Source: Hyphomicrobiales bacterium
GTDB taxonomy: Bacteria > Pseudomonadota > Alphaproteobacteria > Rhizobiales > Beijerinckiaceae
Reading direction: 5' to 3'
Length of the DNA: 64,000 nt
NCBI GenBank assembly: GCA_027484605.1
Contig: JAIXSR010000139.1
Location: 1 to 64,000 of the forward strand
Position 1 is the first letter of the stretch, and every line of letters begins with the position of its first letter. Positions 13,422 through 30,667 of the stretch are shown piece after piece. The notes beneath the pieces were generated by a model. It saw only the letters and a list, made by a program, of their open reading frames with translations. It had not been told where the DNA came from and ran no database searches. The translations under genes and the position numbers were made by a program.

Positions 13422-13495
13422 CGCGCCCGAAAGGATTCGAACCTCTGACCCCCAGATTCGTAGTCTGGTGCTCTATCCAGCTGAGCTACGGGCGC
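13422..13495 (-). tRNA. tRNA-Arg(ACG)
   Basis: Minus strand GCGCCCGTAGCTCAGCTGGATAGAGCACCAGACTACGAATCTGGGGGTCAGAGGTTCGAATCCTTTCGGGCGCG folds as a 74-nt cloverleaf with anticodon ACG; no encoded CCA. Confidence 0.95.
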
Positions 13496-20728: not shown

Positions 20729-21625
20729 ATGTCCGACAAGATCCTGCCCGATGTCCATGTCCGCGCCGAGGTGATCAGCCAGGCCCTGCCGTTCATGCAG
20801 CGCTATGATCAGGAAGTCGTGGTCATCAAATATGGCGGGCATGCCATGGGCGACCGTGCCGCGGCGGAGGATTTCGCCGAGGATGTCGTGCTGCTTGAAT
20901 TGCAGGGCGTGAAGCCGATCGTGGTTCATGGCGGCGGCCCGCAGATCGGCAAGATGCTCGACAAGCTCGGCATCAAGAGCGAGTTCCAGGGCGGCCTCCG
21001 CGTGACTGACCGCGCCACGGTCGAGGTGGTGGAAATGGTGCTGGCCGGCTCCATCAACAAGCAGATCGTCGGCTGGATCGCCGCCGAAGGCGGCAAGGCG
21101 ATCGGCCTCTGCGGCAAGGACGGCAAGATGGTCACGGCCCGCAAGCTGACCCGCACGGTCCGCGACCCGGATTCCCTGATCGAGCGAGAACTCGATCTCG
21201 GCTTCGTCGGCGACCCCTACAAGGTGGATCGTTCGGTGCTGGATGCGGTCCTGAAGGCTGAATTGATCCCGGTTCTCGCACCGGTGGCGATCGGCGAGGA
21301 TGCCGAGACCTACAATGTCAACGCCGATACCTTTGCCGGCGCGATTGCCGGCGCCATGCGGGCGAAGCGCCTGCTGCTCCTCACGGATGTTCCCGGCGTT
21401 CTGGACAAGGACAAGAAGCTCATCCCGCAGCTCACCGTCGATGAATGCCGCCGCCTGATCGCGGACGGTACCGTCACCGGCGGCATGATCCCGAAGATCG
21501 AGACCTGCATCTATGCGATCGAGCAGGGGGTCGAGGGCGTTGTCATCCTCGATGGCAAGGTGCCGCATGCCGTCCTGCTCGAATTGCTGACCGAGCATGG
21601 CGCCGGCACGCTGATCACGGGTTGA
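20729..21625 (+). CDS. argB: Acetylglutamate kinase
   Basis: 298 aa; [47 protein letters not shown]. Confidence 0.97.
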
Positions 21626-22379
21626 AGGCCTCGGCGGGATAATCCACTGCCAGGAAATACAGCCCGTCCGGCGGGGCAACCGGGCCGCATCGGGCCCGGT
21701 CCTGCGCATCGAGCGCTTCGCGCATGGCCGTGGCCGGCCATGCGCCATGTCCGACCCGCGCCAGCGAACCGACCATCGAGCGCACCTGATGGTGCAGGAA
21801 CGAGCGGGCGCTGGCCACGACATGGATTTCCTCGCCCTGCGTGATCACGTCGAGCCGCTCGAGCGTCCGGATCGGGCTGTTCGCCTGGCAGGACGAGGCC
21901 CGGAATGTCGTGAAATCATGCTTGCCGAGGATGCCCTGCGCCGCCTCGTGCATCGCCGCCGCATCGAGCGGCCGCGCCACATGCCAGACACGCTGGCGGC
22001 CGAGCGCCGATGGCGCGCGGCGATTGAGGATCCGGTAGCGGTAATGCCGCCGGATCGCGCTCAGCCGGGCATCGAAAGTCTCCGGCACTTCCGCCGCGTC
22101 GAGGATGGCGATGCTCTCGCCATTCTGGGTCAGATGGGCATTGAGCGCATCGCGCAGCGTATCCGGGCGCCAGCTCTTGGTGAGCGCGACATGGGCCACC
22201 TGTCCCAGGGCATGCACGCCGGCATCGGTGCGGCCGGCGCAGATGATGCGGACCGGCGGTTCCCCGAGCCGCGCGATCATGCGCTCGATCGCATCCTGGA
22301 CGGTGCGGCCGCCGGCCTGGCTCTGCCAGCCGTGATAGGGCGCGCCGAAATACTCGATCAGCAGGCGGTAGCGCGGCAT
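21615..22379 (-). CDS. truA: tRNA pseudouridine(38-40) synthase
   Basis: 254 aa; [43 protein letters not shown]. Confidence 0.97.
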
Positions 22380-22380
22380 G

Positions 22381-23331
22381 TCACGCGGCCGGACCGGCCA
22401 GGGCGCGAACGCCTGGTCCGATGGCAGCGCCCCGCAGGAATTCGGTGGCGCTCATCATGCCCTTGCCGGCGGGCTGGACCTCGAGCAGTTGCACCGCGCC
22501 TTCGCCGCAGGCGAGGGTCAGCGCGTGATCGAGAACGGTGCCCGGCGGGCCATGGCCCTCGACCTTTCGCGCCCGCCCCACCTTGATCCGCTTCGGCCCG
22601 GCGCCCCAATCGAGTTCGAGATAGGCACCCGGGAAAGGGAAGAGCCCGCGGATCTGGTCATGCACCGCCTGGCTGTCCGCCGTGAAATCGATCCGGCATT
22701 CGGTCTTGCTGATCTTGTGAGCATAGGTCACGCCGGCTTCGGCCTGCGGCTGGAAACCCAGCGAGCCGCGTTCCAGCGCGGCCAGCGCGCGGGCCATCAG
22801 GTCGGCGCCGATCACCCGCATCCGGTCATGCAACTGGCCGGTGGTCATGTCAGGGCCGATGGCGATGCGCTCGGCCATGGCGACGGGCCCGGTATCCAGC
22901 CCCTCATCCATCTTCATGACCATCACGCCGGTCTCGCGATCGCCGGCCATGATCGCCCGGTGGATCGGTGCCGCCCCGCGCCAGCGTGGCAGCAGCGAGC
23001 CATGCAGGTTGAGGCAGCCGAGTGCAGGGGCGTCGAGGATGGGCCCGGGAAGCAGAAGGCCATAGGCCACCACCACCGCGACATCCGCGGCATGGCCCGC
23101 GAAGACGGCCTGCGCATCCGGGTTCCGCAGCGACTTTGGCGTCAGGACGGGAATGCCGAACCCGCTGGCGCAGCGATGGACCGGGCTTTCGACAAGGTCG
23201 AGACCGCGCCTGCCCCCCGGCGCCGGTGCGCGGGTATAGACGGCGACAACCTCGTGGCCCTGCCCGATGATCTCCGTCAGGGTGGGCACCGCGAAATCCG
23301 GGGTGCCCATGAAGACCACGCGGAGGCTCAC
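22381..23331 (-). CDS. fmt: Methionyl-tRNA formyltransferase
   Basis: 316 aa; [38 protein letters not shown]. Confidence 0.97.
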
Positions 23332-23849
23332 GCTTCCGGCTCCTTCAGCTTGGCCTGCTTGGCGAATTTCTTGAGCACACGGTCCCGCTTCAGCTTCGAG
23401 AGATAGTCGATGAAGAGGACGCCGTTGAGATGGTCCACCTCGTGCTGGATGCAGGTGGCAAGGATCCCGTCGGCCTCCAGGATTTTCGACTTCAGGTCGA
23501 CATCCTGATACTGCACGCGGATCCTGTCCGGGCGTTCCACCGTCTCGTAATAGTCGGGGATCGAGAGGCAGCCTTCTTCCATCTCGCGCCGTTCCTCCGA
23601 CGACCAGACGATTTCCGGGTTGATCAGCACCAGCGGCTGCGCGGCTTCTTCCTTCCGGGCGAGATCGATCGTGACGATACGACGCGGCACGCCGATCTGG
23701 ATCGCAGCGAGGCCGATGCCCGGCGCGTCATACATCGTCGCGAACATGTCATCGACGAGCATGCGGAGTTCGCGGTCGGCGCCGGCGACAGGGTTCGAGA
23801 TCAGGCGCAATTGCGCATCGGGAACAATGACAAGGGGTCTGACGGCCAT
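23328..23849 (-). CDS. def: Peptide deformylase
   Basis: 173 aa; [28 protein letters not shown]; 4-bp overlap with fmt. Confidence 0.98.
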
Positions 23850-23943
23850 GGATAACTCTCTTTGCCGTTCACATAGGCATTGACGGAAGCCCGGTCAACA
23901 TGTTCATTTTTTGTTCCTGCCGCACGATTCCCGAGGGCCATTC

Positions 23944-25128
23944 GTGGACGCCACGCTCTTCCATCTGGGCAGCCAGGCTGTAACGATCCTCCACGCCCTG
24001 GCGGGCGCGGTGGGGGTCGTGGTCTGCCTGCTGCTGGTCCAGGTCATCGGGGGAATGCGCCACCGGCGCGAACGGTTGATGGCTGCGGCGCGGGAAGAAG
24101 AGCGGCAGCGGGAACTGGACGACAAGGTCGAGTCGATCAACCGGCTGCAATCCGAAATGACCGGGCGCATGCAGACCCTTGCCGAGATTCTTGGCACAAG
24201 GCAGGCGGATCTCGCCCGGCTGGTCAGCGAGCGGATGGATTCCGTGCGGCACAGCATGACCTCGAGCCTGACCGAAACCGCCCAGCGCAGCCAGGAATCG
24301 CTCGCGCGCCTGCAGGAAAGGCTGGCGGTCATCGATGCCGCGCAGGCCGATCTCAAGGGCTTGACCAGCGAGGTCCTGAGCCTGAAGGACGTGCTGCAGA
24401 ACAAGCAGGCGCGCGGCGCCTATGGACAGGGCCGGATGGAGGCCATTGTCCGGGATGCGCTGCCGGCTTCCGCCTATGCCTTCCAGCCGACCCTGTCGAA
24501 CCGCTCGCGGCCGGATTGCACCATTCTGCTGCCTGGGGATGACCGGCCGCTGGTCATCGATGCCAAGTTTCCGCTGGAGGCCTTCGTGCTGCTGCGCGAG
24601 GCGCGCACGGACGAGCAGCGCGCCGCCGCCGAGAAGCAGGTCCGGACCGATCTCGGCACCCATTTGCGGGATATCGCGGGAAAATACCTGATCCCGGGCG
24701 AGACGCAGGACATCGCGATGCTTTTCGTGCCGTCCGAGGCCATCTATGCCGATCTTGGCGAGCATTTCGACGATATCATCCAGAAGGGCCATCGCGCCCG
24801 GATCCTTATTGTCTCGCCCTCGCTGCTGATGATGGCGATCCAGGTCGCGCAATCGATCGTGCGCGATGCCGCCGTGCGCGAGCAGGCGCGCGTCATCCAG
24901 TCGGAACTGGGCAAGCTGCTCGAGGATGTCCGCCGCCTTACCGAGCGTGCCGGCAAGCTGGAACAGCATTTCCGTCAGGCGCAGGAGGATGTGCAGGGCA
25001 TCCTCGTCTCCTCCGAGAAGGTCAACCGCCGCGGTCAGCGCATCGAAAGCCTCGAATTCGAGCAGCCGAACCTCCCGGCATCCCCGCGCGAGGAGGGTGG
25101 CGAGCCGCGCCTCCGCAACGTGATCTGA
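23944..25128 (+). CDS. rmuC: DNA recombination protein RmuC
   Basis: ORF from TTG 23911, probable GTG start 23944; coiled coil, RPDCTILLPGDDRPLVIDAKFPLEAF, ILIVSPSLLMMAIQV. Confidence 0.93.
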   Translation: MDATLFHLGSQAVTILHALAGAVGVVVCLLLVQVIGGMRHRRERLMAAAREEERQRELDDKVESINRLQSEMTGRMQTLAEILGTRQADLARLVSERMDSVRHSMTSSLTETAQRSQESLARLQERLAVIDAAQADLKGLTSEVLSLKDVLQNKQARGAYGQGRMEAIVRDALPASAYAFQPTLSNRSRPDCTILLPGDDRPLVIDAKFPLEAFVLLREARTDEQRAAAEKQVRTDLGTHLRDIAGKYLIPGETQDIAMLFVPSEAIYADLGEHFDDIIQKGHRARILIVSPSLLMMAIQVAQSIVRDAAVREQARVIQSELGKLLEDVRRLTERAGKLEQHFRQAQEDVQGILVSSEKVNRRGQRIESLEFEQPNLPASPREEGGEPRLRNVI

Positions 25129-25147: not shown

Positions 25148-26314
25148 TCAGACGCCGAGGAACCGGTCGATCACCCGGCCATAGATCGCCTTTAGACAAT
25201 CGATATCGGCAATTGCCGCATTCTCGTTGACCTTGTGCATCGTCTTGCCGACGACGCCGAACTCGACCACCGGGCAATAAGCCTGGATGAACCGCGCATC
25301 CGAGGTTCCGCCGGTCGTGGAAAGCACCGGGCGCCGCCCGGTTTCGGCCTCGACGGCCGCCGCCACGAGTTCGACGAAGGGGCCGGGCTCGGTCAGGAAG
25401 GCTTCCGCATTGGTCGGCAGCAAGGTCAGTTCGTAACGGGGCGCATCATTCACGCCGGCCAGCCGGCGGCGCAGTTCCGCGCCCAGCGTCTCGCTGGTCC
25501 AGAGATCATTGAAGCGGATGTTGAACTTGGCGCCGGCGCGGGCAGGAATGACATTCCGGGCGGGATTGCCGCAATCCAGCGCGGTGAATTCAAGATTCGA
25601 CGGCAGGAAATGCGGCGTCCCGGCATCCAGCGGCTCCTTGAGGGCCGCCATCAGCCGCATCAACCCGTCGATCGGGTTCCGGGCGAGATCCGGATAGGCG
25701 ACATGCCCCTGCACCCCGTCGACATGGAGATCGCCTGAAAGGGACCCGCGCCGGCCGATCTTGACCATGTCGCCCATGGTCCGTGGGTTGGTCGGCTCGC
25801 CCAGCACACAGGCGCTGAACACTTCCCCTCGGGCCTTTGCCCATTCCAGCAGCCGGACGGTTCCATCGACCGCATCGGCCTCCTCGTCACCGGTGATCAG
25901 GAAGGCGATCGAGCCTTGCTGCGGCGCCCCGTGCTGATCGAGATGGTCAAGCACGGCGGCCAGGGCAGCCGCCACGCCGGATTTCATGTCGCTCGCCCCG
26001 CGCCCCCAGACGGCGCCCTCGGCGATCTCGCCGGAAAAGGGCGGGCGCGACCAGCCCGAAACATCCCCCGGGGGAACGACGTCCGTATGGCCGGCAAAGA
26101 CCAGGCAGGGCGCGCCGGAACCGATCCGCGCATAGAGATTTTCGACAGCATAATGGCCCTCGGTCTGGAAGACCGGGCGGTGGATCTCGAACCCGTAGGG
26201 CTTCAGCCAGGCCTCGATCAGGCCGAGGGCACCCCCTTCTTCCGGGGTTACCGAAGCACAGCGAACGAGTTCGGCGGTCATGATGACCGCGCGGGACGGA
26301 GCGGAAACCGTCAT
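25148..26314 (-). CDS. dapE: Succinyl-diaminopimelate desuccinylase
   Basis: 388 aa; LVFAGHTDVVPPGD, GRGASDMKSGVAA, ITGDEEADAVDGT, STTGGTSDARFI. Confidence 0.95.
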   Translation of the reverse strand: MTVSAPSRAVIMTAELVRCASVTPEEGGALGLIEAWLKPYGFEIHRPVFQTEGHYAVENLYARIGSGAPCLVFAGHTDVVPPGDVSGWSRPPFSGEIAEGAVWGRGASDMKSGVAAALAAVLDHLDQHGAPQQGSIAFLITGDEEADAVDGTVRLLEWAKARGEVFSACVLGEPTNPRTMGDMVKIGRRGSLSGDLHVDGVQGHVAYPDLARNPIDGLMRLMAALKEPLDAGTPHFLPSNLEFTALDCGNPARNVIPARAGAKFNIRFNDLWTSETLGAELRRRLAGVNDAPRYELTLLPTNAEAFLTEPGPFVELVAAAVEAETGRRPVLSTTGGTSDARFIQAYCPVVEFGVVGKTMHKVNENAAIADIDCLKAIYGRVIDRFLGV

Positions 26315-26317
26315 GGC

Positions 26318-27067
26318 TCAATGGCCCTTGTTCTTGCCATAGGGCGGCGCGGGAATGTCGTTATGGGCCTTGCGCAAGGCGGCGGACCAGCGCTCCCGCA
26401 GGTCATGGAAATAGGGCTCGCCGGCCTCGATCCGGTGTTCGACCTCCGGAACGATCGCATCCCGGCGCATCACCAGGATGTCGATCGGCAGGCCGACGCC
26501 GAGATTCGACCGCATGGTCGAATCCATCGAGATCAGGCCGAGCTTGAGCGCATCATAGAGATCGGAGGAAAAGGTGACCGCGCGGTCGAGGATCGGCTTG
26601 CCGTATTTGTGCTCGCCGATCTGGAGATAGGGCGTGTCCTGCGTTGCTTCGATGAAATTGCCGGCCTTGTAGAGCATGTAGAGCCGCAGGCTCCGCCCCT
26701 CGATCTGGCCGGCCAGCAGCATCGAGATATCGAGCGAGGCGCCGATATGCTCGATCGCGCTGCCATCGATCCGGTAGACATGCCGGATGACCTCGCCGAC
26801 AAACTGCGCGGCGCGGAACATCGAGGGCTGGTCGATCAGCCGTTCGATCCGGCCGTCCTCGCGTTCGAGCCCTTCGCGCAGGATCGAGATGACCGATTGC
26901 GTGAAGCCGAGATTGCCGGCCGTCGCCAGGGCAAAGAGCTTCTTGCCCGGATCCCGGAAGATGTGGAGCTTGCGGAAGGTGGCGATGTTGTCGAGCCCGG
27001 CATTGGTCCGGGTATCCGCCATCATTACCAGGCCTCCGGCAGTCAGAATGCCGACGCAATACGTCAT
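26318..27067 (-). CDS. Proteasome-type protease, Anbu family
   Basis: ATG 27067 inside ORF to 27109; MTYCVGILTAGGLVMMADTRTNAGLDNIATFRKLHIF (N-terminal Thr after Met, conserved Asp17, Lys near 32); neighbourhood typical of anbu. Confidence 0.92.
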   Translation of the reverse strand: MTYCVGILTAGGLVMMADTRTNAGLDNIATFRKLHIFRDPGKKLFALATAGNLGFTQSVISILREGLEREDGRIERLIDQPSMFRAAQFVGEVIRHVYRIDGSAIEHIGASLDISMLLAGQIEGRSLRLYMLYKAGNFIEATQDTPYLQIGEHKYGKPILDRAVTFSSDLYDALKLGLISMDSTMRSNLGVGLPIDILVMRRDAIVPEVEHRIEAGEPYFHDLRERWSAALRKAHNDIPAPPYGKNKGH

Positions 27068-27138
27068 GAAGAAGCTCCCCGGCCTGTTCGCGGCCCCGTC
27101 TCCGCCCATAATCGGGCGTCCGGCCCCTGTCTATTGAT

Positions 27139-27963
27139 CTATTGGTCCATCAGCGATTTTCCCTCGTGCAGGGAAATCGCGACATCCATCGCCTCGCCGG
27201 CGCCGCCCAGCCGGGCGCCACGGATCGGAGCGGCCTCCAGATAGTCCCGCCCGACCGCGATGCGGATATAGCGGGAATCCGTGCACAGGCCATGGGCGGG
27301 GTCGAACCCGATCCAGCCGAGGGCGGTCACATAGGCCTCAACCCAGGCATGGCCAGCTTCCTGCTCGGTTGTGTCCGAGCGCAGGTAATACCCGCTGACA
27401 TAGCGGGCCGGGATGTCGCGCGCCCGGGCGGCGGCGATGAAGACATGGGCGAAATCCTGGCAGACGCCCTTCCGGCTGGCAAAGGCCTGCTCGGCCGACG
27501 TGGTGGCATCGGTGGCGCCGGTTTCGAAGGCGAATTCCTTGAAGATCGTCGCCACCAGGCGGTGCAGGAAAGCGAGCGGGTCGCCGCCTTCCTGCCCGGC
27601 CAGATCGGCCGCGAAATCACGGATCGCGAGATCCGGCCGCGTCAGCGCGGTTTCACTCGCCCAGTAGCCGGGCGGAAAGCGCTCCAGCGATCCCTTCACC
27701 ATGCCGGCATCGGCGGCCACATCCACCTCGCCATCGACGAGGATGCGAAGCCCCTCCAGCGGACCATCGATCGAGAAGGTATGGATGATGTTGCCATAGG
27801 CATCCTCATCCCGGTAGAGGCGGCAATCGGCATCGATCTCCACCCGCCACGACCGGATGAACTGCCCGGCATGGTTCCGCGGCGTGAGGCGCAGGATCTG
27901 GATCGCGCCGCGGGCCGGCTCGTCGTAGATGTAGCGTGTTTCGTGGTGAAGCTTGAGCCGCAT
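27139..27963 (-). CDS. Transglutaminase-like family protein (with bacterial N-terminal domain)
   Basis: ATG 27963 (MRLKLHHETRYIYDEPA); Cys-His-Asp triad region RKGVCQDFAHVFIAAAR...AGHAWVEAYVTALGWIGFDPAHG. Confidence 0.93.
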   Translation of the reverse strand: MRLKLHHETRYIYDEPARGAIQILRLTPRNHAGQFIRSWRVEIDADCRLYRDEDAYGNIIHTFSIDGPLEGLRILVDGEVDVAADAGMVKGSLERFPPGYWASETALTRPDLAIRDFAADLAGQEGGDPLAFLHRLVATIFKEFAFETGATDATTSAEQAFASRKGVCQDFAHVFIAAARARDIPARYVSGYYLRSDTTEQEAGHAWVEAYVTALGWIGFDPAHGLCTDSRYIRIAVGRDYLEAAPIRGARLGGAGEAMDVAISLHEGKSLMDQ

Positions 27964-27991
27964 GATCCGGGCCTTGTCCGCTGGAGGCCCG

Positions 27992-28933
27992 TTATTGCAG
28001 GTACTGGTCGTTGATCGCCAGCCCCAGGCGGTTGTTATCCGCGATGAACTGCTCGAGGAACTCGTGCAATCCGGTCTGGAACAGCGTGTCGATATCCATG
28101 TTCTGCAACTGGGAATAGGTTTGTCGGGCGAGGCGCTGGCTGGGTCCCTGACGGCCATAGCGCTCGGCCAGCAGGTCGAGCACGCGGTTCAGCGTCTCGT
28201 AGGACGAGATCAGCGAGCGGGGCTGCTCGGGCTTGAGGATCAGGAAATCCGCCACCAGCCACGGCTTGATTCCGCCCCGGTAGATCAGGTGGAACGAGTT
28301 CAGCGCGGAGACGGCGCGCAGCAGCGCCGACCACTGGAAGTAATCGAGGCCACCGCCGACCGGCTCCGTTTCCGGCAGGACGACATGGTACTTCACGTCG
28401 AGCAGGCGCGCCGTGGTGTCGGCCCGCTCGATCAGCATGCCGAGCCGCTGGAACCAGTAATGGTCGGTGCGGAGCATGGTCCGGTAGGCGGCGCCGTCGA
28501 AGCGGAGCGAGACCTCGCGCACGAAGGCGAGAAACTTGGTCAGGTCCTTCGAGGTGAAGCTCTGGAAGCGGAGCCGCTGCATCTCGTTCCAGGCATCGTT
28601 GAGGATTTCCCACATTTCCGTGGTGATCGCGGTGCGGACGGCGCGGGCATTCTGCCGGGCAACCTCGATGCAGGCGCGGATCGATGAGGGATTGTCGGGC
28701 CCGGCAATGATGAACTGGGTCACATTCGCCTGGTTGGCCACGTCATAGTGGCGGAAGAAGGCGTCGCGACAGACGGCGATGTCGATCGCGCTTTCCCATT
28801 CATTCGAAGTGCCGGCATAGGCCGAGGGCAGGGTGGCAAGGCGCAGGGCCACGTCGAGAATCCGCGCGAGGCTCTCGGCGCGTTCGACATAGCGGGACAG
28901 CCAGTAGAGATTGTCAGCGGTGCGGGCGAGCAT
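27992..28933 (-). CDS. Alpha-E domain-containing protein (DUF403)
   Basis: 313 aa; MLARTADNLYWLSRYVERAESLARILDVALRLATLP, a hallmark N-terminus of this family. Confidence 0.93.
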   Translation of the reverse strand: MLARTADNLYWLSRYVERAESLARILDVALRLATLPSAYAGTSNEWESAIDIAVCRDAFFRHYDVANQANVTQFIIAGPDNPSSIRACIEVARQNARAVRTAITTEMWEILNDAWNEMQRLRFQSFTSKDLTKFLAFVREVSLRFDGAAYRTMLRTDHYWFQRLGMLIERADTTARLLDVKYHVVLPETEPVGGGLDYFQWSALLRAVSALNSFHLIYRGGIKPWLVADFLILKPEQPRSLISSYETLNRVLDLLAERYGRQGPSQRLARQTYSQLQNMDIDTLFQTGLHEFLEQFIADNNRLGLAINDQYLQ

Positions 28934-28936
28934 CGG

Positions 28937-30406
28937 TCACGCTCCTGCCTTCTGGGACTGCGACTGGCTGGCGCGCGGGGGCCCGTCCTCGATCACCCAG
29001 GTATCCTTGGTCCCGCCACCCTGGCTCGAATTCACCACCAGAGATCCTTTCTTCAACGCGACGCGGGTCAGCCCGCCCGGAACAATGCGTACCTTGTCCG
29101 CGCCGGACAGCACGAACGGCCGGAGATCGACATGGCGGGGCGCCAATCCCTCCTCGACATAGCAGGGCACGGTGGACAGCGCGAGCGTCGGCTGCGCGAT
29201 GTAGTTGCTCGGGTTGTTGCGTACCTTGGCGGCGAAGCTCTCGCGCTGGGCCTTCGTCGCATGCGGGCCCACCAGCATGCCGTAGCCGCCCGAGCCATTC
29301 ACTTCCTTGACCACGAGATCGCCGATATGGGCGAGGACATGGGCCAGCGCCTCGGGTTCGCGGCAGCGCCAGGTCGGCACATTGGAGAGGATCGCCTCCT
29401 TGCCGGTATAGAATTTCACGATCTCGGGCATGTAGCTGTAGACCGCCTTGTCATCCGCGACACCGGTGCCCACTGCATTCGAAATCGTCACATTGCCCGC
29501 CTTGTAGGCAGACATGAGCCCCGGCACGCCGAGGGTGCTGTCCGGCCGGAAGGCCAGCGGATCGAGGAACTCGTCGTCGACGCGGCGATAGATCACGTCC
29601 ACGCGCTGCGGCCCTTCCGTCGTCCGCATATAGACGACATTGGACCGGACAAAGAGATCGCGGCCCTCGACCAGTTCCACGCCCATCCGGTCGGCCAGGA
29701 AGGAATGCTCGTAATAGGCCGAGTTGAACGGCCCCGGCGTCATGACCACGACGGTCGGCTCGCGCGAGGCCGAACTTGGGGCCACCGAGCGCAGGGTCGT
29801 GAGCAATTCATCCGGATATTGATCGACCGGCTTGATCCGCAATTTTCCGAAAAGCTCCGGGAAAAGGCGCAGCATCGCCTCCCGGTTTTCCATCATGTAG
29901 GACACGCCGGAAGGCGTGCGGGCATTGTCCTCGAGCACGTAGAATTCGTCCGGCCCGGTGCGGACGAGATCGACGCCCGCGATATGGGTATAGAGCCCGG
30001 ACGCCGGCTTGATCCGCGTCATTTCGGGGCGGAAGGCCGGGTTCGACAGGATCAGGTCTTCCGGCACGATGCCGGCCCGCACGATTTCCCGCGCGCCGTA
30101 GACATCGCCGATAAAGGCATTCAGCGCCCGCACGCGCTGTTCGAGCCCTTCGGAAAGGCGCGCCCACTCGCCGCTCGAAAGGATCCGGGGCAGGATATCG
30201 AAAGGGATGATGCGCTCCGCACCCTGCTCGTCGCCATAAACGGCGAAGGTAATGCCGATCCGGCGGAAGAAGGCTTCGGCTTCGGCCTTGCGGTTGGCGA
30301 TCAGATCGGGACTTGCTTGTCGGAACCAGTGGGCAACTTCGGCATAGATCTGTCGCGGGTCACCCTCGACGCCACCCATTTCGTCAAACACCAACTGGTT
30401 CGCCAT
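28937..30406 (-). CDS. Circularly permuted type 2 ATP-grasp protein (DUF404/DUF407)
   Basis: ATG 30406 preceded by GGGGGAGAG; VLEDNARTPSGVSYMMENREAMLRLFPELF, VKEVNGSGGYGMLVGPHATKAQRE, STVPCYVEEGLAPRHVDLRPFVLSG. Confidence 0.95.
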   Translation of the reverse strand: MANQLVFDEMGGVEGDPRQIYAEVAHWFRQASPDLIANRKAEAEAFFRRIGITFAVYGDEQGAERIIPFDILPRILSSGEWARLSEGLEQRVRALNAFIGDVYGAREIVRAGIVPEDLILSNPAFRPEMTRIKPASGLYTHIAGVDLVRTGPDEFYVLEDNARTPSGVSYMMENREAMLRLFPELFGKLRIKPVDQYPDELLTTLRSVAPSSASREPTVVVMTPGPFNSAYYEHSFLADRMGVELVEGRDLFVRSNVVYMRTTEGPQRVDVIYRRVDDEFLDPLAFRPDSTLGVPGLMSAYKAGNVTISNAVGTGVADDKAVYSYMPEIVKFYTGKEAILSNVPTWRCREPEALAHVLAHIGDLVVKEVNGSGGYGMLVGPHATKAQRESFAAKVRNNPSNYIAQPTLALSTVPCYVEEGLAPRHVDLRPFVLSGADKVRIVPGGLTRVALKKGSLVVNSSQGGGTKDTWVIEDGPPRASQSQSQKAGA

Positions 30407-30667
30407 ACGCTCTCCCCCGGGGCATGCCGGTTTTTCCCGACAGCCTTTCGATCCCCGGATCGGCAGCAAATGCCGGGCCAAAGATCGCCTCCCCTCGGTT
30501 GCATAGTGAGGGTTCTGGGAAAGAATTCAATCTCCCTCGCGGTGATCGTGCAAGGGGCGGCGCCAGACCGCAGGTGCGCTGCTTGCGCGCGCAACCAATT
30601 CGGTTAAGGGTGGCGCAACCTCGCACACGCGCGCGATCCCCCTTTTCTTTCGAGGAAGGCTCCTGCC

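Follow-up and report, generated by a model that had tools for sequence, protein, structure and literature searches.

The Anbu operon in a 64,000-nucleotide (nt) stretch of DNA from a Hyphomicrobiales bacterium (family Beijerinckiaceae; contig JAIXSR010000139.1; hereafter the window) is probably an amide ligase/hydrolase module used under nitrogen limitation and organised by a glutamine (Gln)-rich C-terminal tail. This is the overall explanation preferred here; it leaves the chemistry unspecified and is only partly shown. It draws on two features that were absent from an earlier note on this DNA, namely a Gln-rich tail on one of the encoded proteins and a putative sigma-54 promoter in front of the first gene. 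The locus itself is a standard, already published Anbu operon (described 2008–2018). Its four genes lie on the minus strand and encode a circularly permuted type 2 ATP-grasp ligase of 489 amino acids (aa) (28937..30406), the all-helical protein alpha-E (DUF403; 313 aa; 27992..28933), a transglutaminase-like protein (TGL; 274 aa; 27139..27963) and the Ntn-hydrolase proteasome homologue Anbu (249 aa; 26318..27067). They are followed head to tail by dapE, encoding succinyl-diaminopimelate desuccinylase (388 aa; 25148..26314, minus strand). The gaps between the five genes are 3, 28, 71 and 3 nt; here the earlier note was exact to the base.

In the window, the tail is found mainly on the ATP-grasp protein, which ends in SQSQSQKAGA (codons at 28940..28969, minus strand), and the last residue of the TGL is Gln. 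In relatives, it is usually the TGL that bears a Gln-rich end, e.g., VQVQQ, QSQSQS or QQQQQ. When the TGLs were clustered at 65% core identity, Gln was present at position -1/-2 in 66 of 78 clusters (85%), as compared to 92 of 1462 neighbouring proteins (6%; binomial p about 1e-66). The corresponding counts for the other subunits, out of the same 78 clusters, were 3 for ATP-grasp, 9 for alpha-E and 4 for Anbu. A later phylum-wide set, which like most of the data was gathered after the tail hypothesis had been set down, gave Gln at -1/-2 in 48 of 51 TGLs versus 33 of 339 neighbours. Gln was anchored to the protein end, whether the chain stopped 10 or 57 residues after its last conserved position. 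Besides the window, the ATP-grasp protein bears the tail where the TGL has none in L047, L055, L082, L107 and L120, and a poly-Gln stretch occurs near the end of ATP-grasp in Tsukamurella (L349).

The putative sigma-54 (-24/-12) promoter, TTGGCCCGGCATTTGCT, is located at 30465..30481 on the minus strand, i.e., upstream on the correct strand, with 58 nt separating it from the start codon of the ATP-grasp gene. It differs from the consensus YTGGCACGRNNNTTGCW by one mismatch (13/14 specified positions) and was the single match with at most two mismatches in the 64 kb. Since 2.75 matches would be expected by chance, the number is unremarkable, and it is the position that counts. In eight members of the genus, the core TTTGGCC.G...TTGCTGC was invariant between diverged flanks, as in a footprint. 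Among 54 non-redundant operons, a motif with at least 11 of the 14 positions was present 30–190 nt upstream in 16, as compared to 16 of 1306 other genes (1.2%; p = 1.4e-15). Dinucleotide shuffling of the 54 operons gave an expectation of 0.68 and a maximum of 4 in 40 sets, versus the 16 observed. The genome encodes RpoN (410.8 bits) and NtrC (671 bits). An operon read from a sigma-54 promoter would most likely be activated by NtrC when nitrogen is scarce, and nitrogen-limitation control in this species is predicted with considerable confidence.

Reports on other bacteria also concern nitrogen. The induction of Anbu under nitrogen limitation in Pseudomonas putida is cited in PMC5666114 and PMC6376114. 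Loss of ntrC in Burkholderia cenocepacia was reported to lower a DUF404/407-DUF403-TGL-TGL cluster 6- to 9.4-fold (PMC5491218), and in marine metagenomes the DUF404/407, DUF403 and TGL-type domains show a correlation with domains for urea use (PMC3597751). The cluster of B. cenocepacia H111 (I35_5080-83) shares homologous ATP-grasp, alpha-E and TGL genes with the window. Its control by NtrC/sigma-54 under nitrogen starvation is described in PMC5491218, whereas that of the window operon is predicted from the motif. Unlike the window operon, it contains an extra large TGL, and no Anbu is named in the passages of PMC5491218 that deal with it.

The identity of the four proteins was supported by family and structure matches. 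The ATP-grasp protein scored 559 bits with PF14403, in a full-length match (positions 1-374 of 374), and 501 bits with PF04174; in the Protein Data Bank (PDB) it matched 3n6x (E 2e-199). Alpha-E gave a full-length match to PF04168 (301.5 bits; positions 1-294 of 294). Its AlphaFold2 model (27995-28933) was all-helical with a mean confidence (pLDDT) of 87, and no significant match was obtained in the PDB by sequence or by fold (fold threshold E <= 0.001, best 0.41); thus, structure gave no functional hint for alpha-E. The TGL matched PF01841, PF08379 and PDB 3isr, and its catalytic triad (Cys168, His205, Asp221) is intact. Anbu matched the solved Anbu structures 5loy, 5nyj, 5nyf, 5nyw and 5lox (E 3e-79 to 6e-65), and its PF00227 score was slightly under the cut-off (21.2 vs 22.4). 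Its residues Thr1 (directly after Met), Asp17 and Lys32 are intact and invariant in 19 aligned Anbus, the window's included; PMC6376114 names the same residues (Thr1, Asp17 and Lys32(33)). A further mark of the family is assembly into a split ring of 12–14 subunits. As read from the sequence, the earlier claim of intact catalytic residues in Anbu (Thr, Asp17) and TGL (Cys/His/Asp) was borne out.

The order ATP-grasp, alpha-E, TGL and Anbu was present in 146 of 198 Anbu loci, and therefore the arrangement is not due to chance. Of 398 genomes sampled from the phylum, 145 encoded Anbu; nearly all surveyed loci belong to Pseudomonadota, and three plasmid loci lie beyond it (Deinococcus, Tsukamurella, Granulicella). 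Descriptions of the operon were reportedly given by Valas and Bourne in 2008 and by Iyer in 2009. Structures of Anbu have been solved, the role of the operon being without assignment (PMC6376114, PMC5666114), and the ATP-grasp protein of the Yersinia bercovieri operon was found to release phosphate from ATP (PMC6376114). The earlier note had thus rightly recognised a conserved four-gene neighbourhood without settled function, but its view of the locus as a candidate for an undescribed system does not hold, since the Anbu operon is in the literature (PMC5666114, PMC6376114). The window operon shares the four families, their order and orientation and the catalytic residues with the operons of Y. 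bercovieri, Pseudomonas aeruginosa and Hyphomicrobium (PMC6376114, PMC5666114). The laboratory strain P. putida KT2440 and Sinorhizobium meliloti also possess the operon. It differs from these by the presence of dapE directly after it, which is limited to one genus. It also differs from the published Anbu operons by the putative sigma-54 promoter recognised in the window and by a Gln-rich tail that is mainly on ATP-grasp and not on the TGL.

In the proposed scheme, the operon came to lie, in one genus, with an acyl-CoA dehydrogenase gene on one side and, on the other, an rmuC/def/fmt/truA cluster whose dapE end faces it. The sigma-54 promoter would drive the operon, with NtrC activating it under nitrogen scarcity. 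The ATP-grasp protein, aided by alpha-E, would form an amide bond, and the Gln-rich tail, on the TGL or, in this lineage, mainly on ATP-grasp, would organise the ligation either as a tethered acceptor, itself ligated or deamidated, or as a docking element holding the enzymes together. The TGL and Anbu would hydrolyse amide/isopeptide bonds, such that the product is trimmed or recycled. The parts of this scheme carry different weight. Gene content, the intact catalytic residues, the bystander status of dapE, the sigma-54 motif with its footprint and the enrichment of the tail are established by the sequence comparison; beyond these, the tail is likely to be essential to function, the chances that Anbu acts as the product hydrolase are about even, and a covalent role of the tail as a substrate is proposed tentatively. 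A fully specified version, in which under nitrogen limitation ATP-grasp/alpha-E would join the tail, or one of its Gln residues after deamidation, to an amine or amino acid that TGL and Anbu would remove again, appears rather doubtful.

Several observations weigh against the preferred explanation of a tail-organised ligase/hydrolase module. First, the clustering of TGLs lessens phylogenetic dependence in the statistics but leaves some of it, and the tail definition was derived partly from the first set of loci. Second, the tail also occurred without Anbu (9 of 16 clusters, as compared to 67 of 78 with Anbu; p = 0.01) and is therefore not tied to Anbu. Third, the genus members G003-G005, G007 and G008 lack the Gln-rich ATP-grasp tail and have a TGL with a single terminal Gln only. 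Fourth, no more than about a third of the operons had a sigma-54 motif that passed the threshold. Finally, purified Anbus cleaved none of the peptides tried and co-expression pull-downs gave no complex (PMC6376114); neither the ligase product nor the Anbu substrate has been identified so far.

The strongest alternative concerns the tail itself, which might act by docking, i.e., unmodified, by binding subunit to subunit (ATP-grasp/alpha-E or Anbu), and might then sit on TGL, ATP-grasp or alpha-E provided that one of them has it. The chances of docking are put at somewhat less than even. The composition of the tail is conserved and its sequence is not, in agreement with such a role, and its position on different subunits by lineage points in the same direction. 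With a relaxed definition, an ATP-grasp tail was present in 5 of 19 operons without a TGL tail versus 0 of 59 with one; under the strict definition p was 0.03, and mutual exclusion of the two tails is therefore only suggestive. AlphaFold2 modelling of a short TGL (pLDDT 92.5) placed the tail Gln residues in the ordered last beta strand. In addition, the tail was retained by inactive TGLs. The triad was partly lost in 26 of 174 operons, nearly always by replacement of Cys (with Pro, Ala, Gly or Ser), among them L108, L117, L119-L122, L126, L138, L140, L144, L150 and L157, and several from Bosea and Methylobacterium. His and Asp were usually retained, and Gln at -1/-2 was kept in 16 of the 26. 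Such a triad-defective TGL would be a pseudo-enzyme and may serve as scaffold or carrier. A requirement of the tail for the TGL's own catalysis is unlikely, since Cys-less TGLs retain it. The absence of a complex in the pull-downs speaks against docking, although the FLAG tag in the Yersinia co-expression was placed on the C-terminus of the TGL (PMC6376114), where it would cover the tail.

It has been hypothesised that Anbu is a general nitrogen-starvation protease that breaks down proteins for amino acids, with TGL and ligase as loosely related helpers (PMC6376114). The putative sigma-54 promoter, the NtrC control of the homologous B. cenocepacia cluster and the intact Thr1/Asp17/Lys32 of Anbu are consistent with this idea, which nevertheless appears improbable. 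No AAA+ unfoldase of the proteasome/HslV type was present in or beside the operon among the identified genes, and several Anbus gave no detectable peptidase activity (PMC6376114). Moreover, Anbu-less ATP-grasp/alpha-E/TGL operons share the promoter type and the tail, and therefore Anbu is not the core of the system.

It is very improbable that the Gln tails are neutral, functionless low-complexity sequence that arose by repeat slippage or from stop-codon context, even though some of them are short repeats (SQSQSQ, QQQQQ). Synonymous Gln codons were mixed in the tails (CAG/CAA 116/52) as in the protein bodies (2044/734), which argues for selection on the protein and rules out slippage of a DNA repeat. 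The tail did not depend on the TGL-anbu gap, which also rules out an overlap with the anbu ribosome-binding region. The excess of terminal Gln in TGLs over neighbouring proteins stands against neutrality as well, and the TGLs of fused paralogue systems from the same or related genomes had the tail in 0 of 15 cases. A fused system is present in the genome of the window (G000, contig C44; L071:6433-13078) and comprises a short TGL, a 794-aa ATP-grasp-alpha-E fusion and a 1125-aa TGL. It has the same domain families as the window operon, but differs from it by the fused ligase, the large TGL and the lack of Anbu and of a Gln tail.

The earlier note had considered the linkage of dapE to be possibly functional, with DapE hydrolysing the amide of the system. 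In the survey of 198 Anbu loci, dapE was found near Anbu in 16, all in one genus of Hyphomicrobiales (two are duplicate contigs of two others, leaving 14 genomes plus the window); adjacency in one lineage only was what that note itself had named as speaking against its proposal. In this genus, rmuC, def, fmt and truA come next after dapE (in two members no rmuC was detected). This arrangement is kept without anbu in G018, where anbu is on a separate contig. Relatives without anbu likewise had dapE with rmuC/def/fmt/truA, in unchanged order in L087 and close by in L089, L093-L095 and L103. DapE passed the curated cut-offs (NF009557, 466.6 vs 284; TIGR01246, 367.9 vs 361.8), and the window dapE was the sole match in the genome above the DapE cut-off (367.6 bits), the next best scoring 101 bits. 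The congener G014 lacks Anbu and any ATP-grasp of this family and has kept dapE. There, dapE adjoins, divergently, an acyl-CoA dehydrogenase gene, which flanks the operon in other genus members, and the junction (L085:10600-10813) represents the empty site of the operon. A tree built from DapE, Fmt, TruA and Def nested G014 in the Anbu-bearing genus, and the four operon genes have therefore most likely been deleted together, with dapE left in place. The anbu-dapE gap varied within the genus from overlap to about 500 nt; a scan of this gap for sigma-70 promoters and terminators gave none, and such a scan is not informative for this organism. Thus, the dapE-anbu adjacency reflects gene-order history. 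Despite the 3-nt gap and the adjacency conserved inside the genus, a functional membership of DapE is scarcely credible and was ruled out by synteny, restriction to one genus and independent loss of the operon: dapE is a housekeeping bystander with no part in the Anbu system. The 3-nt gap suggests co-transcription of anbu and dapE in this species, which is relevant to knockouts, as dapE is probably essential.

In the window, rmuC is located at 23911-25128 on the plus strand, and the rmuC, def, fmt and truA cluster, assigned with Pfam, extends over 21615..25128 with def, fmt and truA on the minus strand. An Rfam scan of the 64 kb revealed no structural RNA at the locus; the sole match was a tRNA gene at 13422-13495 on the minus strand.

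Ligases acting on C-terminal tails are known from Pup/PafA/Dop, RimK-S6 and tubulin-TTL, and many species have a Pup with a C-terminal Gln. The window operon resembles these systems in pairing a ligase with a partner protein that ends in a tail. The window operon differs from these systems by its circularly permuted ATP-grasp fold and its tail sequence, and tail ligation in the window is putative. Unlike the Pup system, it comprises no Pup, PafA/Dop or AAA+ ATPase, and the shared C-terminal Gln is no more than a similarity; the identified genes of 21.6-36.1 kb, the only part of the genome searched for them, included neither Pup nor PafA/Dop.

Some further protein ends were observed. In many Hyphomicrobiales, the last helix of alpha-E closes with a C-terminal [E/D/K]QYLx. 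The mycobacterial proteasome ATPase Mpa ends in GQYL, and the resemblance, by analogy, may be a lead for docking to Anbu. In L301, L351, L294 and L332, where no adjacent short TGL was detected, alpha-E ends in TQSQSQGT, MTQSQSQ, TQRQTQSH and NQSQATQ, respectively, not all of which meet the strict tail definition. An Anbu-less variant of the operon in L296, L297, L307, L308 and L335 has a TGL with a C-terminal extension that ends in QQQQ to QQQQQQQ; as measured in L296, L308 and L335, it runs on for about 50 residues after the last conserved position.

A literature search found no paper on Gln-rich tails, the full text of Iyer 2009 being outside that search, and neither the Gln-rich tail nor the broad sigma-54 signal can yet be called novel with certainty. 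For Anbu, crystal structures exist, while substrate, activity and partner remain to be named. The Gln-ended tail and the sigma-54 promoter tell where and when to look, i.e., which protein end to leave untagged, which residues to mutate and that nitrogen starvation is the condition, and through them the function of the Anbu operon becomes directly testable. If the tail is indeed a substrate, this would constitute a bacterial cycle of C-terminal-tail modification with its own proteasome-type hydrolase, analogous but unrelated to pupylation.

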